Positions 3,359 through 63,708 of a DNA stretch of 64,000 nt are shown here, in pieces (position 1 is the stretch's first letter; each line of letters opens with the position of its first letter). The position numbers and the translations under genes are program-made. The notes below the pieces were generated by a model, which was not told the origin of the DNA, searched no databases, and saw nothing but the letters and a program-made list of their open reading frames with translations. Location: contig OZ014419.1 in the NCBI GenBank assembly GCA_963965975.1, positions 5,545,677 to 5,609,676 of the forward strand, written 5' to 3'. This DNA is from Xestospongia bergquistia (Eukaryota > Porifera > Demospongiae > Haplosclerida > Petrosiidae).

Positions 3359-5199
3359 AGGGTATAAGTGAGATTGAAGGAGTATCTGTTACAAAATTGA
3401 AAAAAAACGCTTGTACATTTTGCACACTATCTCAAATTTTAAATGTAATTGCTCTAGAAGTACATTACATATAAGTTCACAACTATTGGAATGTCTCATT
3501 AAGTTCACAAGTTTTGATTTATTAATAGTTATTATAGTCTTTTATAGTTTTAAATTATAATTATTTTAGAATTATGGGTGTTGAAACCACTCCCTCCTTA
3601 AATAATTATTCTAAAATATGCAGAAACATAACATCAGGGTTTCCATTATTAGGGATTTTACTCTAGATTTAGGGAAAATTTAAGCAATAATACTGATTAT
3701 TTATAAATAGACCAAAAGGAGCTTGCAATCTCAGTATTTATGCACTAGCTTTTCATGACCAGCTCAAATTATTGTTGAAAGTACTAGAGGAAGATGTTTA
3801 TAGCAAAAATAAATGCTTCAACATTTTCCATTTTTGCTGGGAGGAGACTTCACACCTACTCTCACATTAGTCTCAATTGTATTTGTTCATACAAAATTCA
3901 TGTGAATATTAGTAATACAGACTGATAATAATACTGATTATTTATGACCAAGAATTGTAGAATTATTGTCAATAATAGCTAGTCTGATTACGGGTATTAT
4001 CACTTTGTTAATAATTTAATATATAGATGTTGTCATTTATTTTATGCCATTTCATTTTCTGTAGATTCGATTGACACAAACAAGGTGGAATAGCATCAGA
4101 CATGTTTACTAGATTGTCTGTTTAGCAGCATGATATTAGGTAAGGTATACATTTTAATGTTTAGCTGTCCAATTGTGTAAGATATCTTCTAGCCTCTCTT
4201 CTTTAGCCTACCACACATCAATGATGGATAAATGTGTCAGTTGTCAATGTGTGGGTTTCAAGTTTTGATCATAACATACGTGTAACGTAGAATAAGTGAG
4301 AAATTGGCAGCATCATATACATGTTTACGCATACTATGTGATCCAAAATATATGGAAAACAGAATGGATGTATAATATTTGCATACATACATGACAGCAT
4401 TCACAAGAAGTCAGTGCTACGCCATGACATCAATTTACAGGTACAGATAAGTGTTTGTAAAACTTTGGCTACTGAGTAGCAGTAATTGCCATACTTGTTC
4501 ATTGTATATACATCTATATGCACATGTTATAGATTGATGCAGAATACCATACTTTGTTCATAAAAGGATGTTAACTTTTTTAGTGCTGCCTGTTATTAAT
4601 TTAAAATAAAGTTGACTGAAGAACTGAAATAGTTACTCTTTATGATTTATGTTGTACGTATGAAAATTTTCAATAACAAACTAATTATGAACATGGCATA
4701 TCTCATTAAAAATATGCCTTCACAGTATCTTTGTAATTTATTTTAAACCTCTCCATTAATAGAGTAGTAAGTACCTGTACATATGAAACATTAATAATTA
4801 TGGTAGACTGATACAACTTTGGCCAGACTATTTTTTTTGTAAAGTGTGACAGCAAATATATATTGGTTGCTGCTTTATATCAGTTTCTATTCCCTTCAGA
4901 TAGTGCTTGATCTCTAGCAACTATAGCCATTTTTTAGATTAATGCATGCTCATTTATTTGTTACCATATCATCCAGGGTGATTAACCATTTGTCATTGAA
5001 TCACTTTACCTTTAGTGTTCTATGTTTGATATAATCACTGTGACATACATTCAAGAACAGCTGTCTTATGTTGTCTGTTAAGTATTAGAAATTTGTATAC
5101 ATGTTTTAAACTAACTTACTTCGTGTTTCTTGAGAGTGGACCTTATGAAGTTTCTTGTGAAGATACAATCTCTGATAAAAATTTTGAAACTTTTATTTG

Positions 5200-5775
5200 C
5201 TTAGCTATTAAGGTGTATAGTTGATTGTATTAATCATATTCACATGTATTTCGTAAGCACAAATGCAGTTGAGACCATTGTGGGAGTAGGTGTGGTGTCT
5301 CGACCCAGCAAAAACATGTGGTGTCTCGACCCAGCAAAAACAAAAATGTTAAAAACGTTATTTTGCTGATCTATTAAGATGTAAAGTTGATTGTATTAAT
5401 CATATTCAAATGTATTTTATAACCACAAATGTAGTTGAGACCATTGCAGGAGCAGGTATGGTGTCTCTTCCAAGCAAAAACAGAAATTTAGTTTTACAGA
5501 CCTATTAAATTGTATAGTTGATCATATTAATCATAATTACTTGTATTTTGTACATATAAATATAGTCAAGACCATTGTGGGAGTAGATGTGATATCTCTG
5601 CCCAGTAAAAACAAAAAATAATTACAAATTTATTTTTGCTGATCTTTTGAAGTGTGTAGGTGATCATAATTATTAATCATGTTCACATGTATTCTGAATG
5701 CACAAATATAGTTGAGACCGTAGTAGGTGTGGTGTCTCCTCCAAACAATTATCAATCAAAAACAATTAAAGTGTG
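5200..5775. repeat. Array of ~120-160 bp degenerate tandem units
   Basis: Four units in direct orientation begin near 5200, 5364, 5491 and 5636. Each runs from GTTGATTGTATTAATCAT through CACAAAT-TAGTTGAGACCATT and GGAGTAGGTGTGGTGTCTC to CCAGCAAAAACA. In the first unit the last 28 bp or so (GTGTGGTGTCTCGACCCAGC and following) is itself doubled at about 5288-5343. Inverted relatives of the same unit lie at about 3826-3930 and 5835-5955. The pattern suggests repeated insertion or local amplification of one short non-autonomous element. Confidence 0.65.
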
Positions 5776-6506
5776 TTTAGTCTTATGATAAATAATTTAC
5801 ACTTAATACAATCAACTACACAACATAAGAGGCTAACAAAAATAATTTTTTACTCTTGCAAAGGCCTCAACTGTATTCATCCATACAAAATACACACTAC
5901 TTATATAATAGGTCAGCAAAAATAAATTTTTCAACATTTTCTATTTTGATGGTTTCCAAGCAGCACTAATTATAATGTTAAATGTTTCAACCCATGTAAT
6001 GTGTTCTGCAGCAATTAATTTGAAGATGTAATTCAATGTTTATTTTATTTATTAAGTTTCTGTTGACATACAAGTAGATTTAGTTGTAATGTCTTTGTTT
6101 CATATATTGTGATAATTTTTGACTTTAATTTTTATTTCTATTATAACCATTTTAGCATTAGCATGCATTCTCATCCTATACACAACAATTTATATTGATA
6201 TTGTCATGTTTATTTAATTAAGTGTAAATATTTACATAATTATATATTCTTAATCTTTTTAAATAAAGGAAAAATTCCAAAACATTCACTGTTGATATTG
6301 TAACGCCCACGCAACAGCAAACTAAAGAATGTCATCTTAGCTCGCCTCTCCCCGTACAGGAAGGGAGGAGGGCACGAGTGGCTAAAGACAGGAATGTTTC
6401 ATCAAAAATTCATGAAGATAGGCGTGGGATTACAGAGCAATGAATAATGTATGTATATTAAGATATATGAATAAAACATTAAGACGCGTGTGTGCAACAT
6501 TGAAGA

Positions 6507-7183
6507 ATGGATGACGATGATTTTTCTGAAGTTCCTGCTGCTTGTGAAAGTAGCAATAAGTTTCCTGAAGTTGGACTACAGAATCTAGGAAATACATGTT
6601 TTGCAAATGCAATAGTGCAATCACTGATTCATTGCCCAGACTTTCACAGATATGTGATATCACATAAGGAAAGTGGTATGTAACTTTAATATGAGTTGTA
6701 CTAAAATATGAATAGTAAGTCATAATATACAATATTACTATGAATCATCTTTCCAATGAAATATTACCATATTGGCATTTTAATAATCAAGAGGATGCCC
6801 ATGAATTTCTATGTGGAATTCTTAAGAGCCTAGAAGATGCAGACATTAGGTAATTATTATTTTCAAACAATAATGTAACAAACAATATTAACATAATGTT
6901 CTATGTAGTTCTCAAATAAACATTGGCATTGAGACTGCAGGTGAGTAAATGATTTATATGTTGATGACATTAAAATCCTTTAAAAAATACAGTTCGATGT
7001 GTAGAATGTAATGCAGTAAAAATAACAGAAACGTGTCAGTCTCACATTCAAATTGATACACAGGTTGGTTAAAATACAACAGCTAGCTGTGTTGAAGTAA
7101 CTGTTTTTCAGAGTGAAAATGTACATAAAGGTATTAGTAAAAATCATAAAGAAGTATGAAATTCTCAATCAACACCTTTTGTA
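6507..7183 (+). pseudogene. USP/UCH-type deubiquitinase fragment inside transposon
   Basis: Starts at ATG 6507 (MDDDDFSEVPAAC). The first exon holds the USP Cys box, GLQNLGNTCFANAIVQSL, with the nucleophile Cys in the NTCF motif. The next exon (about 6735-6850) has YWHFNNQEDAHEFLCGIL, matching the conserved Q-x-DAHEFL block. Later short exons hold VRCVECNAVKITETC, the Zn-knuckle CxxC. Exon edges have proper GT/AG signals. The His box that completes the catalytic site was not found, and the frame degenerates after about 7140. Ubiquitin-specific proteases remove ubiquitin from proteins. Here the fragment precedes the transposase on the same strand and inside the same terminal repeats, so it is probably the N-terminus of the element's protein or a captured host gene. 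Confidence 0.65.
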
Positions 7184-7528
7184 AGTTGCTAATAACTTAA
7201 CCATGACACATGTATTATGTATTACATCAGGGAAGACCATGAAGATCAATTAAATCCGCAGAAAAATTCAGCTCTTGCCTGTGCAATTAAAAGTAATCCA
7301 ATCAGAGGAAGTGCTAGCAATGGTGGCCAACAGCCCTCAAAGTGTAAGTCTCAATTAATGGGCATCTTATTTTGCTATATGATAGTAACTAATGCAATAC
7401 AACCAACAACTACCAAAGTCACATCACAAGTCAGTAATCTAACCATAGGAAGTGGTACCAAACAAAAGACACAATTACAAAAAATTGGGACAACAATGCT
7501 AAAGACATTAGTAGCTTTATATATGTAG

Positions 7529-9925
7529 GTTGATAACAAATACCAATGCTTGGATTGTGGAAAGGTATACCAAAGCAGAAGTGGTCTTTTCAAACACAAG
7601 AAAGCTCTTCATTATGAAAGTTCATGAATTCTTCATTGTCATGAACCTAACTGTCATTTCACAATGAAGAGACTGACACAGCTACGTGAACATTTAACCA
7701 GCACACACAGAATAGAGATGAAAGTAAAGACATTTACATTTGCAGACAATGAAGGTATAATTTTATCCATGTATCATCTAAGAGGCTAGTGTTATATTGA
7801 TCTCCCATAGAATTTAAAAGATGGAAAACATGGTTCGAAGAAAAGATTTCATCTTCTTTTGTCAAAGCAATGGGAAATAAAAGGGACACTGATGACAACT
7901 TAATATGTTATTATTACTGCAACAGAAGCGGATTCTACAATACAAAGGGAATTGGAAAACAACAGATCAAAGTTCAAGGGACTTGCAAGCTTAATACCTA
8001 TTGTACAACATTAATTAACACAATGACTGAAGAAACTACAGGTAAAGTGGAGGTAGAAGTATGAGATACACACTATGGACACACAACAGATCTAGGACAT
8101 ATACGTTTACCTGATAATGTTAGACTCTCTGTTGCTGGACAATTGCTTCAGGGAGTCTCATTTCAACACATTTTGGACAAGGCACGTGACAGTGTTGGCA
8201 CAGATCTGAAATGAGTTCATCTAATAAGTAGAAAAGACATTGGAAATATTGAAAAATCATATCACCTAAATAGTAAACAAAGACATAAGAATGATTTACT
8301 GGAAGAGAAAGACATACAGAAATTTCAAATACTTCTGACAAAAACTATTCAACAACTTCAGATGAATGATGAAACATCTCCATTTGCAGAATATTTTATC
8401 AGAACCTACGTATATAGAAAACAACAATGGGCACAATGCTATAGACAGGGATCGTTTATTAATACGAACATGTATGTTGAGGCTTTCCATCGTGTATTAA
8501 AGTATATATACATGAATCGTAGGATCAATAAAAGAGTGAACAATTGTATCAATACATTAATGAAAATTACAAGGGACAAAGCATTCGAATGACTTATAAA
8601 ACTAACCAAGGGAAAGAAGACAAAGAGATTGATTGACATACACAAAAGACATTTAACCAGCAAGGACATGACAATAGATTCAGTTGAACAAGTTAAAGAT
8701 GGAGTATGGGATGTGACACCATCATGTGGTAATGACAAATATAGAGTGACTATAGAGAATGAGGAATGCCCAGTGAATTGTAGACTAAGATGTAATGACT
8801 GCAACATATGTGTCCACTCCTACTCCTGTACATGTTAAGACTATACTACAATAGGAAACATATGCAAACACATTCATTTAATGGTACAATTTCAACAACA
8901 CAACAGTCAAGAACAACTAAATGAAAACAACTCAACTAACAATGGAAAGAATTCAGACAAAGAACTAAATGATATACTTAAAGCAATAATGTCAGATGGT
9001 GGTGATTTAGACATTATTGAAACCAGACAACACGTTTTTAACAAAATTCAGACTATTACAACATTAGTAGAACAATGTACTGATAAACAGACATTACAAA
9101 CAATAAACACAAAGCTTGGTACCACAATAGGACTAATAAAATGTCATTTAGAGCAGATGAAACCAGTACTTCCACTGACACAACATGAACCAGTAAATAA
9201 AACTATAGCTCCACAATAACCATTCTTCAGCACTCGAAAAAGACCAAAAAAACCATCAGTTAGACTAAAAAAGCCAAAGAACACTGAAAAAGAAGAAATT
9301 GAAAAACAATTAAACAATGACACAAAATTGTATATGACAAAGAAAGCCACATATGGTATGACTAAATCTAACATTAAACAATAAAATAACAAATTACTTT
9401 CCCTTTATAGATACTCTAATATTGTTATGTACCAAAGATAGAGCAGATAAGTTCATCAATAGAACAGCAAACAAATTAACACTGGTACAAATGAAAAAGA
9501 AAATGGACAACCTACCTGATGAGATAATTGACTTTGATATCTCTAACATTCAGGTATACGTGACAAATGAAGCATGGGAAACATTACAACAACTAGGTAA
9601 GGTGACATTACACTTCAACCATACTATCATCAACACAACACCACAGTGACTACCAAACGTCTTGAATGGATGTGCTCTCATTGCCAACTATCTACAACAC
9701 ACAGAAACATGATAGAATGTGATGACTGCTGCAGATGGTTTCACTGGTAAGTATATTAAATGGTATATTATATATACTAGATTTGGTAATAATATACAGA
9801 CTAAGATTAACATCTAATATTACCATCTATTTTGTAGGACATGTGTGAATATTGAAAATCCACCAACTGCTGCATGGATCTGCTCATGTTGCATTAAGAT
9901 AAAGTCAATTAAAATAGAAGAATGA
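7529..9925 (+). pseudogene. MULE-like transposase, C2H2 + SWIM + PHD, decayed
   Basis: Begins with C2H2 fingers (YQCLDCGKVYQSRSGLFKHK, then CHEPNC...H). The middle block has HIRLPDNVRLSVAGQLLQGV and VHLISRKDIGNIEKSYHL, followed by RQGSFINTNMYVEAFHRVLK. These are typical of a MULE-related family with C2H2 and SWIM modules seen in several invertebrates. The SWIM finger is around 8780-8880 (YSCTC...NICKHIH). The last exons, 9648-9749 and 9839-9925 with an intron 9598-9645 before them, encode a PHD finger (WMCSHC...CDDCCRWFHW, then TC and WICSCC). One frame is kept but is broken by at least six nonsense codons: TGA near 7626, 8062, 8212 and 8590, and TAA near 8836 and 9217. The stretch from HKNDLLEEK to SPFAEYFIR is far shorter than usual, as if the D-D-E core were deleted. 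Confidence 0.7.
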
Positions 9926-10242
9926 CTACATTAGATCTAATCACTTACTTTTGAGTTTGTTTACTACACAAGACATCACTTGCTTTTTACTTTTACTTCC
10001 TTTTTACTTTTAAGTTTGTTACAGTATAATTATAAATTGTTACTCCGCCTACTGTTTATTTAGTTGCTATGAATATATAATATACCATTCCTGTGGAAAC
10101 ATTCCTATGGAAATATTCCTGTCTTTAGCCGCTTCTAGGAGGGCTACCTACTCGAGACTAATTTGCTCTCGGGAATGTCAGGTTAACTTCAACTGACTCA
10201 ACACTGGTAATAAAAGAAGTCCTCCTTAGGGATTAGTGATCG

Positions 10243-13200
10243 ATGGCGTCGTTGTTGAGAAAAGTGAAATTACCTATTTCACCACCCTCTCCACAGCTAC
10301 CTATTTGTAAGGCTACTATTAACTCCTTATTTAATAACTTTACTTATTGACCGAAGGTCATCCACAATGCTTCCAGGAACCATTACCTAGATTTGGACAC
10401 TCAGCAGTCGTGTACCACGATGGTGTTTTCATATGGGGAGGTATGGGGTGCAGTAGACATCTTGGAGATCACCATGCACCTCATCAATTGGAAAAGTTTA
10501 ACTATATGGAGGGGTTCTGGGAAACGTTGACTACCAGAAATGACCCCCATCCAGGAGTAGCAGGTACAGGTGATGGTATTCTGATTATATAATGCCTTTG
10601 TTGTCATAAACTAATTTGTATGTATTTGTGCAGGCCATGCGTGTACTACCACATCTAGATATGCCTATTACTTTGGAGGATGGTGTTGTGTGAATGAATG
10701 TAATTGCAAGTACAGTTCAGTCTATAAGCTGGACCTAGAGGAGAGGAGCTGGGAAAACCTGCAGTCTGTGAATCCTGATCTAGGTCCAATGGCTAAGAGA
10801 GATTGTGGAATTATTGTGTTTGGCAATGGTGCTAATGAATACCTTTGTGTCATTGGAGGTTTTGGCCAATTACCTAAGGTGAAAAACCCTAAGTTTCAAT
10901 ACATTTTGCGTGATCTTGCTGATTGTGATAGGAGCTATGGTTGCACCAATGGTTGGACTAATGAAGTCCATATAATGAATACAACATCAGGTATTATGGC
11001 AACCTACATCTTTGTTATATCATTATGATTTCTAGAAGTAAAAACCTGGGAATCCTTAGAAGTAGTGGGTGATAAGCTACCTCCGTTTCAAGCCTTTTCT
11101 CTTACAAAAATTGATGAAACACATGCAGTCATCTTTGGTGGATATACTCCAAGCAAAGGTTGTCTTGATGATACATATATGTTGGAATATAAGGAAAAAA
11201 AAATGGTAACTAGATGATAAACTATCTTGATGTACTTATTTGCTTTTAGTATTGTAAGAGGTTGAGCTGTACTGGAAATAAGCCTCCACGACGGCACAGT
11301 CATGCTGCTATATGTTTAACTGGACCACTACATGGCTACTCTCAGTGCTCTCTTTTGATAATGGGCGGAGAAGACCAGACTTCAAAAGTGTTAGATGATT
11401 GTTGGCTTCTTAGTCTCAACGATACAATTTGGAAAAGGGTACATAATTGTATTCACAAGCAACTTATTGGGCAGCATTTATGACTATTCCCCATTAATAG
11501 GAATTCACAACTTTGAAATAGCTTACATAGTAAAACATACTGATAGGGATTGTTTGCTTCAAGCAACAGACTTACTACTGGCTTCTTTGTTTCAGATATC
11601 CATTCCATCACAAGTGGTTCAGCGTAGTTTGTTTTCTCTGTCTGCCTTTCATATATCCCCAGACTGTGTTTGGCTTCTCTTATTTGGAGGCACACCGTCA
11701 TGGAACATGGATCAACTAGACACCCAACAACAAAGAATTTCCCAAACAGTAATCTTAGAATTTAGTGAGTTCAATGAAAGAACTTGTAAAACTATTCATT
11801 AGTGTTATGCCTTATTAAATGAAAAGCAGTGAAGACCAGAACCTTCGCTAGAGTAGTACCTGAAAAAATAATGATTTTAGTTTGGCATGCTGCCATTGAG
11901 AACTTGCTCAAAATTTAGGCAATAGATTTTGTCTCAAACGTATCCTAGCTTTAGTACAATGGGTGTCTATTGTTAAGCCTTGGAGTTAGATGCTAGAATG
12001 TTATCGCACGACATGAAAAGAATATTTGTGTATGAATGTATCTCATTCTTCTTAGATGTAGAATCAAAAGGTGACTGGCTTGCTGACTCAATTTTGTTAT
12101 CATCACGTTCACTGTATAAAGAACATATACAGTCAAGATTGGAAGATGGTCTCATTAAATGGCAAAAGGCATGCAGTAAAGCTATACTCCTAATGCACAA
12201 ACAACAAGTTACCCAAGATGAAAAGCTAGCAAAATGCCAATATCTTCTAGATGAAGCATGCAAAGAGCATGTTTTATACAGTGAGAAAGCACAAGTAAAA
12301 TTAAGGAAATTGGATCAATTAGAAAATGAAGTTAGCAGCCTTCGTTCACAAGTAGCATACCTGCAGTCAGTGCAACAAAAGACAGAAAATGAGCTTATGG
12401 TTCACAAAGAAAAAATAAAAATATCTGAAGAAGAGTCTGAAGTTTTGAAGCATGACCTAGAAGAAAGATTAAAATTGAAGCAAGATGAACTTGAAGCGAT
12501 GATGGCAACTCATTCAGATCAAAAGAGAGAATTACAGTCAAAACTTGCTGACTGCAAGATGCAGGTGTGTTTAACTCTAAAGCATTGGTAGTTTATATTG
12601 TTAACTTACAGTTATCGATATCCCAAGAAGAGCTTAAAAAGACAAAACTTCAAGCTGAAGATGCAGAAAAGGCCATTAACAAATATAAAAATATGCCAAA
12701 GGATATGAATGAGTTAGATGACTTAAGTAAGTCTTCTCTCAATTTTTCTAACACCACACCTTACTTTTCAAATAGCCCTTGGGATTTTCAAGAAAGAAGT
12801 TGAAAGATGTAACCAACTTGAAATCCAGCTGATGTTCACAACTCAGCATTATGAACAAAAAATAGATGAGAAGGAAACAGAAATACAAAAATGGCAAGAA
12901 ATGGATGCTTCTAATCGACAGTTGATAACAGATCTAAAGTTTCAATTAAAAAGTATGATGCAGAGTATTAGTGTTAACAATTAATTATCTTATTATAGAA
13001 CTTCACTCTGATGAACACTCTGCTCTGAAAATTTCTCTTGACTCTCGTCCAGACACTATGCTATTTACGAAGGCTGTGTCCTCTAAAATCAAAACAAAAT
13101 GGTTTGCTTTTGGTCGTTGTTTAGAAATTCCACATGGGGAACTCAAAAGTTGGGAGATGGCTAATCGTGGAATGCAAGATGTGTGTTTCTTTGAAGTTCT

Positions 13201-39416: not shown

Positions 39417-42400
39417 TTATAGTTTGCTATTAACAAAATCTTTTTTTATACCAAAAGTGGTGTAGTCAAACTTTTCTTTTCCTTTCAACTTTGCGAGGAA
39501 AGTGATATCTATTAAAACCAAATGATCATTACCACAACATTACTATTAAAAATACTACCTTCATCATGTAAGAATAACTTTAAGGGTTCAATTACGAAGG
39601 AGAATGGTAAAGCAAAACTTATGTTTGAATGTATCACTGATGAAGTATCATCCCTAGAGGAAAACCACATAGAATAAACAAACAACAAATCATGATATTT
39701 ATAGCCTCTCCTATACCTTGTGTTACATAATAGCATCCCTAATGGCTTTCCAGACTCATCAGAGCTTAAGAGACCTCCACTCATTCCACTAAATACAGCA
39801 GCACTAGACTGTAACAGAACTGGCTCTGGACCAATAATCTTTGATAATATACCCCTAGTAGTTGTTGGAGGATAGCCAAAAGAACAACCTACAGCAGTCA
39901 CAATTTGACCTAAATGATTTGTTTCCCTGTGTAAGATACAAGATGTATAATGATCAACTACATTTTATCAAAATGTCTTTACTCTTACATTATTATTTGA
40001 TCAGAAATAGTAGGATAGTCTTGTTGGGAATATAGAGAAGATGATAAGGAGTGAGGCAATTTCAAAACAGCAACATCTGGTGAAGTACACTTCCAGAGTA
40101 CAATTGCTGTATGAATAATATCATCTGATCTTATGGAAACAGGACCTAGGGAAGATTTTCATCTATATAATTAACAAGTTATACAAAAGAATCTTTATTA
40201 TTGACTTTCAATGTGATGATAAACAAGGAATGTCTGGATAAGTTGAAAGCAATATGCTCACGACAAGATTCAATAAATTTTTACTGATATTGTTTAAACT
40301 ATTGAAATGTTTAATTTTTTGCTAAGTCAATTATATATCACTTTACAGTATGATGACCATTTACCTCTGTCGCTTTGTTCAACAACATGGCCACAAGTAA
40401 GTACAATATTTGGAGTTAATATGATACCACTCCCCTGAGTATTACCACATACAATGGACACCACACAGTTGACAAGAGGTGGCAACTGAATACAAGGATC
40501 TACAATAGGAATAGGTTGTATACTCAAGCTTTCTACTAAATTTATTAAGCTGAGCAGCTAAAGTACAATATTAATAAATCAATATAAACAATACCATGGT
40601 ATATAACTGACTTCTACCATGCATAACATAGTGTTCATGAAAAACTTACCTGAAAGGTTGATAAGAAACCCAGGAGGTTTAGATGTGTTCTCAAGAAACA
40701 GTTACCAACCTCTCAATGATTGTTAAAATTTCTATAAACCTAAAGTCAAGTGATTTCATTGGACAGTTTACTACTAGCATGGTAGAAGTCTTATAGCTTT
40801 ACCAAAACAATAACAATAGAGTAAATGACTCAGTTTATAAAACAACAATGCAAAGTGAACCAAACCTTTTGTTAAAATGCTTCTGTGTACTCTTCTGATT
40901 TTAATTACATTAAAAATACTTGCTATTGAACATATCAAGGTCATTCCCACTGGATGACCTCTTATGTCATATAGACTAGTTAGAATAATTCCCGCTAGTC
41001 TACATAAAAGAAAGTGAAAAGTAAATGATTGTGCCAAACTCTATGTCATAAGCATGCATTTAAAATAATATAATTATACTGAAACTAAAATGTGAGCAAA
41101 ACATTTCTTCCACCTCTGATAGCACCAGCAAGTAATGTTAGCATCAAAAATACTATTTCAATATTTTTAGATTACAACCAACTTAGATATTGATAATATT
41201 ATGTACCTGTATTCATTATCAACTTTTGCTATAACCATTCCTCCTTCACAGCCTTTTACAGATCTTAAACTGGCTAATATTACTACCTCATTCATACCAT
41301 ATAGTTTACTGACACAACCACTGGATAGACTGTTAAGAAATAATGTCGGTAAATGATGACCAAATGGACTGCTAACAGAATATAAAGGATAACCTAACAT
41401 GATAGGAACCATTAGTGGAAGTGGTAAGGATGGAAATCTGTGGAGTAATACAACCAAAATATTTCATTATAATAACATTACTTAATGTACTAGACTTACT
41501 GCTCTGAAGTTGGTGTTAGCTCTAGTATTATAACAGTTGATAATGCCATCAAATCTTCATCAGATGGTTTGCCATTATGAGAATCACAGAAGAAAGAGTT
41601 AGGATTTGCTTGAAACACTGTCTGAAGCACTTTAAAGACATCAGTCATCAAAAATAATTGTTTATTATCAATTTCTAGTAATCTATATTGAGTATTTATA
41701 TCAGCTTGACAGATGATAGAACATTGAATGTCATCAGGATTTACTCTCCATTTAACTAGAGAAAAATGACTACATTTTTACTATGTAAAGGATTATTACA
41801 CACATTATAATCCAGAAATATCATAGGCACACATAACTTTTTACACTGATTCCTAATTACTTTTGACAAAGTGGAATCAGTCATGAAATATATATATATA
41901 AATTAATATTATGTAAATATTATATAACAAATCAGTAGGATAAAACATTATATGATAGGCTTCTTAATAATCATTATTTTACAATAATGCATGCTATGTG
42001 AATACTAAATATTAGGTCTGCTACAGAATAACAAGTGTATACTTCATTGTGTACAGAACTTAAACAATGTAGTCATAATACATCAATGCATTATATAAAC
42101 TGTTGCATTTTAAGGACATTTATAATTTTACAGTGTGTCAAAGCATACAGTCAAATCACTGACTTCATCAATTCATTAACTTATTCATTCACACCCTTTA
42201 ATAATAAAATCTATGCCAGAAATTTGTTATAGGTAATCATTAAGAAAACAATTGCATCTAAACTTTTCAGCATTGTTTTCATCCTATTATCATAATGTTT
42301 GTCATTTAAAAATAGCTAAAAGGTCATATCACATGATGTCATAATGACAAAAGTGTACTGGCTCTCAATCCCTAGCCATAGATGCTACTACACACTTAAG

Positions 42401-42906: not shown

Positions 42907-51758
<8,852 letters not shown>

Positions 51759-52036: not shown

Positions 52037-55000
52037 ATGGCTGTTGCTGGGGAGATCGAGGAGATTGAGATGCAATCGTTTAATGATGAATACAGTGAAG
52101 AGGATACAGAGAATCTTATCGTAAAAAGGTCTGAAGAATCATTACTGAAGGAAATTGTTTGATTATTGTGACTTCTCTTAAATAGGAGACCTCTTCGACA
52201 TGAATTGTTAAACGAAGCTAATTTTGAAGACGGATTTCATCCAGTCAAGAGCGAAATGAAGAAAAATTGGTATAAATCATTTATTCCTCCGGAACCAATA
52301 TGTAGTTCATTACTACCCCCAACTTCAAAGCGTGACTGCAAGTTCTTTCTTTTCACACATTTACCTATTTTGGGTTGGTTGTGGAGTTATCAACTTAAAT
52401 TTCTTATTGGAGACTTTATTGCTGGAATCACTGTTGCTATTATGCACATACCTCAAGGTAAAGAATATTGTAATAACTTGCTCATTTCTCTTCATGTGTG
52501 GAGTATTAACAACAATATTTTACAATGTTTACAATGTTTAGTAAATTGGTTGCTTTACTATGCTACCAATGTCATACAATATAGTATTGGCAGAACACGT
52601 ATTTATTCATTCATGAGGTATTGCATACCTGCCAAAATAAGAGATGTCATCTTGTGTTAACATTTTACAATGATTTCTCTGATTATATTACATCAATTGA
52701 ATTTAGTGTTTGTCATAGCAACGGCCTTCAAGAACCACCTACCAGTGTATTTGTATCATTGTTGGGGTAATTGCAATTGGTAATTGTAATTAGCTGTAAT
52801 CATTACATCATTCATGAAAATTGGAATTGGAATTGTATACCTGTAATTGAGAAGTAGTTGGATGGCTGAGCTATCTGAATAATCTGAGACAAGAAGAATA
52901 AAGCTGTTGATGAGTAAGTAAAGTGGTTTATGAAACCATCTTGCAAATTGCCCTGTAACATTCACTTGTATAGGGCACTGATAATAGCTATTGTAATTGT
53001 GTGTAATTGCTATCAATTTTTTTGTTGTAATTGCTGTGTAAGGTGTAATTGGTAATTGAAAAAAAATTGGGTGATCAAAAACAGAAGTAATGATAATTGT
53101 AATCAATTACTTTTTTATAGTAATTGTCACAACACTGATTTGTATAGTTAATACCAGTATGTTTAGGATGTCTGTTTAATGATTTAATTAATTTATAAGG
53201 AATATAAAATACAATTTGTAGCAACTTTCTATCTTGATACTTAGACCTTATTAGAATTTATAACTGAGTATATTATTTATTGATTCTCAAGTAAGGAAAT
53301 ATTGAGAGGTTCTCGTCAGTTCTGACTGATATATTCATTAGTACATAAATTCTATTACAACATGCCTGCAAAATCATCATGTGGTCTTAAATGTATACTT
53401 TTCCATTTATAGGATTAGCCTATGCTCTCTTAGCTGGATTGCCTCCTGTTTATGGTCTATATGGATCATTTGTACCTGTTATAATCTATTCCATTTTTGG
53501 GACATCAAAACATATATCTGTTGGTAAGTCACATCATCTCAAATGGATAATCGTAATTATTGAACTTTGCAGGTACATTTGCTGTTGTTAGTTTAATGGT
53601 ATCTAATGCAATAGGTCATGTCTTTAATAGTAATGAGGAGATGCAACTTTGTATTGATGAGTTAAAGTCAATAGGTAGTAATGTTAGAGTAAATATCAGT
53701 GGCCTTGAAGTAGAATGTGATGATCTTAAAATTGAAATAGCAACAACTTTAGCATTTGCATCTGGACTTGTTATGGTATGTTTAGTATATGAATATTTAT
53801 AATAATGTTCTTTTCCATTGCAGCTCTTCATGGGTATATTTCAGTTTGGATTTATCACTATCTTCTTATCTGAATCTCTTGTTTCTGGGTATACCACTGG
53901 AGCTGCTGTTCATGTCTTTACTAGTCAAGTTAAACATATCTTTGGTTTTTATAATATGACGTCTCCACAAGGCTTGTTGAATGTGCCAAAGGTAAATTAT
54001 ATTTATTATGTGAATGAAATGTTCTTTTACTTATAGACATGGGGATCAGCTTTTGAGGCCATTTTTGATTGGTCAAAAAGTGTCAATACAGCTGCTTTCA
54101 TTATTTCAGTCCTTTGTATTATAACTCTAATTGTCTTTCGTGTTGTGGATCGTAAATTGTTGCGTAAACTCAAAGTACCTTGTTTTTTATACTCACACAA
54201 TTTGAAAAGATGGACCAAAGACAAGTTTCAATGGCCTGTTCCATTACCTTCTCAGCTGATTGTTGTATGTGCTTTGTGAGATTGTATTCATATAGATTAT
54301 TTACAATAGGTTATAGTCGCTGCTGGTATTTCTTATGGAGCTAACCTCAATGAAAGATATGAAGTTGATATAATTAAGTCTATACCTCTTGGGTTTGTGA
54401 AAATTTTGAAACCAAACAAAAAAATTAAAGATTATGGACTTTTTCATTTAGATTGCCTCCTGTGACACTACCAAACTTCTCCCATTTTTGGGTTATATTA
54501 CAAGATGCTTTTGTGATATCAATTGTAACATTTTCAGTCGCTATCTCATTAGCTCAAGTATTTGCTAAACAATTTACATATAGTATCAGTCCTAGCCAGG
54601 TCAGTACAGTTTTGTGTCTTATATTGAAATTAACAGTACTACTACACAGGAGTTTATAGCATATGGAGCTATGAATTTAATTGGTTCCATGTTTGGCAGT
54701 TTAAATACAGCAGGTAGTCTCTCTAGGTCAACAGTTCAAGCTGTTTCTGGTGGTAAAACTCAGGTGATTATTACTTTTTTCATGTTACCCATACACTTCA
54801 TATTTCTAATATAGCTTGTTGGTTTTATCTCCTCTACTATCATATTAATTGTTTTGGTATCTCTTGGTTTTCTATTTGAACCTTTACCTAAAGTATTATA
54901 ATTACCATAATAATTGCATTATTCTCTTTCCATACACATGCGTATAGGCTGTTTTAGCATCTATAATATGGGTAGCATTGTATGGCATGTTCTCTCAAGT

Positions 55001-56622: not shown

Positions 56623-59255
56623 CTAACAGTGTTTTCCTTCTTCACACACTGTCTCTTGAATAAATGCATATGTCAGAAAGAGAACATACATAGCTACAAA
56701 GCTGAGGCCAACAAATGCATTAAGTTTGAATCGAAAAGCAGTGAAGATGCCTATAACAAGAAATATAACTAACAGGAGGACAAGGCTAAACTTGGCATGA
56801 GGAATGATGGTGTATTCTCCAGCATGATAAGCTCCCTATATTAAATGAAAAGGTAATGTTACAAAAGTTATGAATATCTAAGTGCTGACCATTTGTTCTT
56901 CAGAAAGAAGAGCAAATGCTTTTCCTTTATCAATGCAGGTGCGTAGTAAAAATGGTAAACCTAAGCCAAGATTAATGTCAAAGACATTTGAACCTATTGC
57001 ATTAGAGACAGCCATATCTCCAAATCCATCTCTAGCCACTAAAATAGAACTGATTGCATCCTAGAATATATCATATGATCTTATGTTATTTAAACATTAA
57101 AGTCTTACTGGTATACTGGTTCCTATAGCAACTACCACAAGGCCCATAGTGAATTCTCCAACACCCAGAAGACATCCTAAACGAGCTACTACTGTTACCA
57201 TCATGAAACTTAGTGCAGCTATCCAGAAGATAGACATAAGAAATGAAGCTGTCACCACATACCACTTGCGATTTTTAGAACAGTTTGGAATGGTCCATGT
57301 AAATACCACCATGAAGGGAAATGAAACAACAAAGAGAGTCATACTCAAAATATATTTTATCCATCCTAACAATCCACCTTCTTTGGCCTCTGTCCAATCT
57401 GGTGGAGCTGCCTTGATAGGTGGTAAAAATGGAATCAGAGTGATTGTAGGATCTTCTTCACTTTCAGTACTTCCTATTTGTGAAGCTGAGGAATGCACTG
57501 CATTAATAGGCAATTGCTTTCCTGTAATTAACATAAATGTGAAGTAAAATGACGGAATAAAAATATAAATTTATTAATTATAATGATGATGATGTGTTGA
57601 ATAATTATGTTGAAAGCTGTTCCTAGCTATAAATAATAGACATACGTTTGACATTGTAAATGCTATTACATACATAATACCAAGAATTGATTATAAGAAC
57701 CTCCTTCAAACTAGTAACTTACCATTATTTTCTTTTGCATCACTTTCTGAAGGCTGAACTTGATTTACTTCTTCAGCAATAATTGGACTGCTTTCAGAAC
57801 TAATATGAATTGATGGTATAATAGGTTTTATTTCTTGAGAATGATCTTCAAGAATGGGTAATTCTTGCTGATAGTGATGTTGAGTATGCTGAAGGGGTAG
57901 ACTGTTGGTTGTTGATCGCCTGCGATGAGACTGAAGGCAGGAAAATAATGTAGTAAAATGATAAAGTCTATAATAACTCCTAATTGATAATACTTAGCAA
58001 ATATTGTGAAAAGTATGTAACAGTTCTTACTATTGTCCCTGCCAATTCTCCTTTGTGGGAATGAACAAACCGATGTTTATGATGATCACTATGAGTGCTA
58101 TCCCCCTATATAAGAGGACTGGTTATTCTTGTTCATATTATGAATATAACATACAGCAGTCACTGTACTGCCATGAGCATTAACTGAAGCACCACTTTCT
58201 TCATTGAGTTGTACCGGTGCAAGGCGAGTATTTCTAAAACATAATTATTAATAAAAAATTATTAAAAAGTGATTAAGCTTTTACTTGCAGAAAGTACATT
58301 CCACTTTCAACAGGAGTTTCATCAAATGAGAATTGAATTTCATTAAAACGATGTAAGCAATATATAGTATTAGAAGTGTTAGTGCTTCATACCACTCAAG
58401 GTACCCATCCCATGCAAATCCAATGAAGAAGATAATAGAAATACCATACATTGTAGCGTCACGAAAAAGTGGTCGCCAATCAAGAAATAACGACTAAAGA
58501 ATGAAATCACACAGTTTATAGTCATTTTCATTAAAATGTTACCTTTCCAGCCAAGACAGCACTGAGGGCAACAATGATTAGAATATTAAACATAGCACTC
58601 CTAAACATTGGATACAAGTATGCATCAAAGATTTAATTGTCAATTAATTTCTCTTACCCAACAATTGTACCTACACCTACATCACTTTCTACTCCAACTC
58701 CAGCTACAGAGGTAAATAGTTCTGGAGCTGATGAACCTGCAGCCATGAAAGTTGCTCCAGCCACATCTTCTGAAAGATCCAATTTATCAGAAATTGCTTC
58801 CAATGAAGGTACGAAGAAGTCATCACATATCAGAGCAAGGCCTGAGGAATGATCAACAAAGAATTTTCATAGCTTGATTGCTTATAATAACATGAGTGAC
58901 ATTACCAATGAAGGAAAGTAGTATGCAAACAACATATGGAATTAAGAACACATAATGTCCATGGCCTAGTTCATATGAGCACCCTTCCCATGTTGGAGAC
59001 TCAAGAAGTTTGCGACCAGTATCAACATGGTTAGTGGAATCTGAGAAAGACACATGCCATGAATATTTGGACAATGTTTTGTTTGAAAGTCATTGTTATG
59101 CTAGTATATAACCTGGTTCTGATGTGATTTTTTTGCTGACGTTTCCAATGGAATAAACTATAAGCCCAACTGCCAATATCACACAAATTTTTCTGAAAAC
59201 CCTCTGGAGTCCAACCATTATCACCTTCTGTCACAATCATACGACACGCAGGCAT
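56623..59255 (-). CDS. SLC24: K+-dependent Na+/Ca2+ exchanger (NCKX)
   Basis: Two alpha repeats identify the family. Alpha-1 is [40 protein letters not shown] and [20 protein letters not shown]; alpha-2 is [20 protein letters not shown] and [20 protein letters not shown]. Between them are TM segments ([35 protein letters not shown]) and a long cytosolic loop of about 200 residues, His/Ser-rich ([31 protein letters not shown]). The protein ends in hydrophobic helices ([20 protein letters not shown]) and KHC-stop at 56623. NCKX swaps Na+ inward for Ca2+ plus K+ outward at the plasma or organelle membrane. The start at ATG 59255 is likely but the first splice is unsure: joining [10 protein letters not shown] to [14 protein letters not shown] via the donor at 59225 keeps frame. 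No signal peptide is evident. Paralogue number (A1-A5) cannot be fixed. Confidence 0.93.
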
Positions 59256-63614: not shown

Positions 63615-63708
63615 AATGGCAAAATTTAGAAAAGTTTGTTAAATTTTAATCACAGCTTTTGAATGGCAAAATTTAGAAAAGTTTGTTAAATTTTAATCAC
63701 AGCTTTTT
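63615..63708. repeat. Two tandem 47 bp units
   Basis: The 46 bp from AATGGCAAAATTTAGAAAAG to ATCACAGCTTTT occur twice, identical and head to tail, between the GSR stop and the next gene. The perfect identity suggests a recent duplication. Confidence 0.9.

Follow-up and report, generated by a model that had tools for sequence, protein, structure and literature searches.

The 64,000 nucleotides (nt) of Xestospongia bergquistia DNA analyzed here (GCA_963965975.1, OZ014419.1, positions 5,545,677-5,609,676 of the forward strand; henceforth the window, whose own coordinates are used throughout) probably harbor a decayed, non-autonomous, MULE-like DNA transposon of the cut-and-paste type, 3,763 bp long (6374-10136), which is flanked by an 8-bp target duplication and lies upstream of a Kelch-repeat gene. 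Its recognizable coding parts follow one another on the + strand: the front of a USP deubiquitinase, two C2H2-type motifs, a transposase remnant, a SWIM-like motif and a PHD finger. The initial annotation had read this region as one element between inverted repeats with all its parts on one strand, and both claims stand. The features are as follows:

6366-6373, unstranded: left-hand target-site duplication (8 bp), AGGAGGGC; exact match at equal offset
6374-6400, + strand: left terminal inverted repeat, 27 bp; 23/27 paired with the right end
6507-6675, + strand: USP exon 1, from its ATG; Pfam UCH E=2e-9 by itself
6720-6849, + strand: USP exon 2, with QEDAHEFL at 6788-6811; by itself Pfam UCH columns 84-104, E=0.13
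6909-6940, + strand: USP exon 3, short, placed by splice signals and phase
6993-7063, + strand: USP exon 4, with RCVEC; its bounds are an exon call
7217-7342, + strand: linker segment MYYIREDHEDQL...QQPSK; its in-frame ATG at 7217 is a potential start of a second gene
7547-7708, + strand: two C2H2-type motifs, 7547-7612 and 7637-7708; the stop at 7625-7627 separates them
7811-9384, + strand: transposase remnant in one frame; stops at 8062, 8212, 8590, 8836, 9217 and, in its last codon, 9382
8827-8871, + strand: SWIM-like motif CxC-x9-CxH, a pattern match with the stop at 8836 inside it and no Pfam SWIM match
9658-9746, + strand: first exon part of the PHD finger (Pfam PHD, parts joined)
9838-9925, + strand: second exon part of the PHD finger (Pfam PHD, parts joined), ending in TGA at 9923-9925
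10086-10122, unstranded: 14-bp unit in 2.6 copies, running into the right inverted repeat
10110-10136, - strand: right terminal inverted repeat, 27 bp; 23/27 paired with the left end
10137-10144, unstranded: right copy of the target-site duplication; exact match

The boundaries are set by two concordant signals. In the 64 kb, the sequence of the 21-bp inverted repeats is matched at just two places with up to 3 mismatches, 6380-6400 and 10110-10130 (0.01 expected). The repeats extend outward by 6 partially paired bases on each side to give the 27-bp ends. Beyond these, the direct repeat AGGAGGGC sits at the same distance from the 21-bp core on both sides (offset 6/6). Of 20,000 pairs of window positions drawn at random (those less than 200 bases apart being scored as misses), 0.055% had a repeat of at least 8 bp within offsets 0-12 at equal offsets, and 0.47% had one at any offsets. 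Taken together, the inverted ends and the repeats beside them delimit an element at 6374-10136 with an 8-bp target duplication. When compared with the window by blastn, this element matched itself and nothing else. Near its right end it also contains a perfect 17-bp inverted repeat (9759-9775 and 10073-10089).

The USP family, also classified as Peptidase C19, is represented by the first four exons. Joined across GT-AG introns of 44, 59 and 52 nt, these match Pfam UCH with E=5.4e-12 over columns 1-105 of 254, and their best relative among solved structures is USP36 (E=1.7e-8). The Cys and QEDAHEF boxes that the annotation had named are thus both borne out by the profile: the Cys box, GLQNLGNTCFANAIVQSL at 6573-6626 within exon 1, occupies columns 1-34 and the QEDAHEF box columns 84-104, while the approximately 50 columns between them are spanned by about 20 residues. 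The His box needed to complete the active site is absent, with no GHYxxY pattern in any of the six frames of the window. Given this and a UCH match that ends at column 105, the USP part is a fragment; judged from its sequence, it is the front of a USP without a complete enzyme. Exon 4 by itself has no UCH match, the joined match ending before it, and gives a weak Fer4_20 match below cut-off (E=0.0035); its RCVEC presumably belongs to the USP zinc ribbon, as the first half of it, although Pfam does not confirm this.

Further along the same strand, the frame 7801-9384 (528 codons) carries 6 stops including its last codon, as against 49 and 54 in the other two frames, while 5,000 single-base shuffles of the same stretch had 42 stops on average and never fewer than 21. 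With 6 stops where 42 would be expected, this frame is evidently the remnant of a coding sequence; when the C2H2 region is included, it has six internal stops (7625, 8062, 8212, 8590, 8836 and 9217) and one terminal stop (9382). Within it, Trp 8428 and Glu 8479 are separated by 17 residues, close to the 18 from W401 to E419 in Muta1. This active mosquito MULE generates 8- or 9-bp duplications, and its transposition was abolished by E419A and reduced by W401F (PMC5225508).

A Pfam scan was run on the single pieces of the element, on their read-through with X at stops, and on the three + frames of 6401-10109, each supplied as two parts and with X in place of stops. The annotation had called MULE-like transposase blocks, C2H2 fingers and a SWIM finger, each of which survives in part. 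The transposase blocks are upheld as a coding remnant with the W-E spacing, but they contain internal stops and have no Pfam transposase match. Both C2H2 motifs are present, but the best zf-C2H2 match (that of the first motif, E=0.0013-0.0016) falls below the curated cut-off and a stop intervenes between the two. The SWIM pattern is in place, but a six-frame translation of the window contains CxC-x(7-12)-CxH 3 times, so that it is at chance level when taken alone, and we accept it because of its position only. The profile check of the translated exons that had been proposed with the annotation recovers part of the UCH domain and the whole PHD domain but not SWIM.

The PHD finger is complete. 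Its joined halves cover the whole of Pfam PHD (1-47/47, E=8e-7, above cut-off) with the C4HC3 zinc ligands, as had been claimed for it, and its best relative of solved structure is TAF3 (E=1e-8). The PHD finger of TAF3 reads H3K4me3. At the places aligned with TAF3, the finger of the element keeps both tryptophans and the methionine, residues that we take to form the methyl-lysine cage of TAF3.

Relatives of the element were sought in virus, bacteria and archaea collections rather than in animals, and absence there is uninformative on animal genomes. The 21-bp end pattern had 0 matches in viral contigs and 0 in genome contigs of these collections. Two transposase segments, used as protein patterns on the viral contigs, gave 14 and 15 matches, none of them a relative by tblastn, and tblastn of one transposase segment against phages found no match. 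Degenerate patterns, whose fixed letters partly presuppose a family, retrieved viral stretches (2 and 1) as well as 8 bacterial ones, 11 loci in all (L001-L011). None of these displayed kinship with the element: tblastn of six queries reached a best E of 0.22, and the translations around the match at the 3 viral loci were chance-like. One of the loci so retrieved, L008, belongs to a Legionella species.

What kind of transposon is this, then? In favor of a MULE-type affiliation, the element has terminal inverted repeats (27 bp) and a duplication which, at 8 bp, lies within the 8-10 bp range of that superfamily, and on these grounds and the motifs above we infer MULE kinship. The catalytic core of the transposase was probably deleted in this copy: D-[GASC]-[TSQ] is absent from the 528-codon frame and its single [CD]xxH is DLGH at 8089. 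We infer that the stretch bearing the two aspartates and the C/H motif was lost near 8300-8310. Also on the side of our reading, the Pfam MULE model, without a match in the three + frames, does exceed its cut-off in 1 of the 3 bacterial genomes supplied and in 3 of 14 controls. Several observations weigh against parts of this reading. The putative MULE membership rests on motifs, and no Pfam MULE, transposase or SWIM match was obtained in the single pieces, the X-read-through or the three + frames 6401-10109. Three transposase segments and the PHD peptide had no match in the prokaryotic NCBIfam library. By hhalign, the segment 8215-8589 (125 aa) matched two near-identical bacterial transposases, which we take for IS256-type, with a probability of 0.2%; by Smith-Waterman, both halves scored no better against one of the two than shuffles did (0.944 and 0.554 of 500 as high); the comparison with IS256-type enzymes is a weak test, being with two near-identical bacterial sequences. 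With phmmer against solved structures, the best match of 8215-8589 was Peregrin at a non-significant E=0.43. As no kinship with IS256 or MULE transposases was found, we file the element as MULE-like and not as a MULE member. The deletion of the core is itself unproven: aspartates occur at -198 to -195 and at -138 from the Glu, near the -205 and -136 of Muta1, the DLGH motif does exist in the frame, and the argument from spacing is not decisive. The placement of the lost core at 8300-8310 presumes a widespread invertebrate family, and is a lead rather than a test. Lastly, one acidic residue of the TAF3 cage is a Thr in the PHD finger of the element.

The 8-bp duplication fits other cut-and-paste superfamilies as well: hAT and P elements also make duplications of this length, and Ginger and Zisupton/KDZ elements have PHD or protease domains. 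This duplication and the lack of a MULE HMM match in the three + frames speak for such an origin; nevertheless, MULE-type groups would accommodate the W-E spacing as well as the C2H2, SWIM-like and PHD fingers, and we regard another superfamily as improbable. Ginger1 in particular was rejected since its 4-bp CCGG or CCGT duplication is at variance with the 8 bp of the element. Less probable by far is that the parts are a chance assembly of motifs or that the USP is a host exon beside the transposon. Two observations would suit this: the exon phases between 7063 and 7547 join poorly (with exon calls and translations judged by eye), and the SWIM pattern is at chance level. However, the UCH and PHD matches greatly exceed what chance would give, the right-hand neighbor is the Kelch gene, and a single pair of inverted ends, with its matching flanking repeat, encloses every part. 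As the USP part is itself within the ends and the duplication, it is unlike a host exon that merely adjoins a transposon, which was rejected as an explanation; the placement of the USP within the element by the annotation is thereby sustained.

How the USP came to be within the MULE-like element is the least certain part of our reading, the choice being between a working component of the family and a captured passenger, both of which are compatible with that reading. The latter would be a one-off, Pack-MULE-like capture in which part of a host USP gene, introns included, was picked up without having a role in transposition, for which we would give somewhat less than an even chance. Consistent with it, the USP similarity stops mid-domain, introns of 44-59 nt are retained, the exon phases join poorly to the C2H2 part, and the ATG at 7217, with a frame of its own, offers the transposase gene a possible separate start; moreover, MULEs are known to take up host fragments (PMC6446971, PMC13317346). 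Against it, the USP ATG is about 107 bp in from the left end, where the opening exons of the element's own gene would be expected and on their strand, the USP peptide has no further match in the rest of the window, and joins of proteases and transposases are recurrent (PMC2836005). The same position and strand favor the former, namely a genuine domain of the family, in which the deubiquitinase was N-terminal, either in one protein with the transposase or co-expressed with it, and is truncated only in the present copy. We treat this too as a serious possibility that falls a little short of even. It draws further support from the 134 codons joined in phase over four exons with 0 stops, unlike the transposase frame, and from the attachment of OTU, Ulp1 and one C19 peptidase to other transposases (PMC2836005). 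Yet the stop density of the transposase frame predicts only about 1 stop in 134 codons, so that the freedom from stops says little. Neither the His-box pattern nor the remaining USP domain is present, and some of the stretch from the Cys box to QEDAHEF is missing as well, about 20 residues standing for columns 34-84. No second copy was seen in the 64-kb window or in the virus, bacteria and archaea collections. Fusion of the USP and the transposase in one gene is possible.

Briefly, we advance the following scenario for the element. The ancestor would have encoded, in a gene or genes on one strand, the USP start, the two C2H2 fingers, the transposase, the SWIM-like finger and the C-terminal PHD finger. 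The zinc fingers might have bound the ends of the element, with the DDE core cutting and pasting at an 8-bp stagger. The TAF3-like PHD finger might have favored gene starts marked by H3K4me3, and the present copy lies upstream of the Kelch gene. A complete USP, if there was one, could have deubiquitinated the transposase or repair factors. In the copy at 6374-10136, the catalytic core and the rest of the USP domain were most likely lost and stops accumulated; with these losses it would make neither a working transposase nor an activity that removes ubiquitin. The annotation's element able to remove ubiquitin from its own transposase is, therefore, not upheld for this copy: the His box is absent, the USP partial and the transposase remnant broken. 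As far as its sequence tells, this copy looks dead and would be mobile only via a transposase supplied from elsewhere. It is rather doubtful, and we offer it as a conjecture, that intact relatives in this or related genomes encode a MULE-type transposase with a complete N-terminal USP and a C-terminal, H3K4me3-reading PHD finger, so that the element would both target gene starts and protect itself or the insertion site by ubiquitin removal.

The surroundings of the element look eukaryotic, with Kelch, SLC26-like and sodium/calcium exchanger segments. Pieces of the Kelch-repeat gene (10338-11480) lie directly to its right, placing the insertion close upstream of that gene. To its left are diverged direct repeats (5177-5755), whose 60-nt core is present four times with spacings of 131-166 bp, and inverted relatives of these at 5803-5947. 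Elsewhere in the window, we observed a segment with similarity to trypsin-like peptidases, below the Pfam cut-off (39515-39964, - strand), an SLC26 anion transporter-like segment (52172-52657, + strand; PDB match E=3e-6, no Pfam match at 0.001), a sodium/calcium exchanger-like segment (57100-57570, - strand), an uninterrupted (AG)35 run (46059-46128) and a perfect tandem pair of a 47-bp unit (63615-63707).

Against this backdrop, the association of ubiquitin proteases with transposons is already known; the combination in this element is unusual and rests on one broken copy, which shows association only. In the literature, a USP domain in a MULE was not found among the matches listed, which comprised titles and the starts of abstracts, most subscription papers and Repbase reports being outside the search. 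The annotation had proposed a new mobile-element strategy, a claim weakened by the published joins of OTU, Ulp1, PHD and C19 domains to transposases (PMC2836005, PMC6446971). To elaborate, Bao, Kapitonov and Jurka (2010, PMC2836005) describe OTU or Ulp1 domains in Ginger1 transposases, with PHD in one family as well, and Ulp1 in Mutator transposons. A figure legend of that paper refers to an alignment of the Ulp1 and PHD domains of Ginger1 and Mutator transposases; the legend by itself does not establish a PHD row from Mutator. The paper also proposes that the removal of ubiquitin and SUMO helps transposition. Should intact copies carry the same parts, USP would join OTU and Ulp1 as a protease fold in Mutator-type transposons, the 2010 proposal (PMC2836005) would be strengthened, and the TAF3-like PHD finger would furnish a testable reason for insertion near gene starts.

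The Trichomonas protein XP_001314237.1, compared by its description in PMC2836005 as transposase_11 plus Peptidase C19, resembles the element in joining a C19 domain to a DNA transposase, and departs from it in its transposase_11 core and its protist source; C2H2, SWIM and PHD domains go unmentioned in that description. Ginger1 likewise combines a transposase with an OTU or Ulp1 protease, Ginger1-9_HM having PHD in addition; unlike the element, it has a Gypsy-integrase-type core, a 4-bp duplication and a C-terminal protease of another family (PMC2836005). The Kaonashi elements are MULEs with a transduplicated protease domain of the SUMO pathway, in which they are akin to the element, but this domain is Ulp1 and not USP, resides in one of three genes, and is found in plants in elements without terminal inverted repeats (PMC13317346). 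Among the MULE groups in Table 1 of Dupeyron et al. 2019 (PMC6446971), none is listed with a USP or the set of C2H2, SWIM and PHD seen here; furthermore, the 27-bp ends of the element are shorter than those of most groups listed, and no catalytic core was found in it. Yet the superfamily at large shares with the element its inverted ends, 8-10 bp duplications and zinc fingers, SWIM occurring in many groups (PMC6446971). Rehavkus has a PHD finger in its transposase and a minisatellite before its 3' inverted repeat, beside which the 14-bp unit in 2.6 copies overlapping the right end of the element may be set, whereas its duplication is of 9 bp rather than 8 bp (PMC6446971). Finally, Spectre matches the element in its C2H2 finger and 8-bp duplications, and MuDR-6_HM of hydra carries an OTU domain (PMC6446971).

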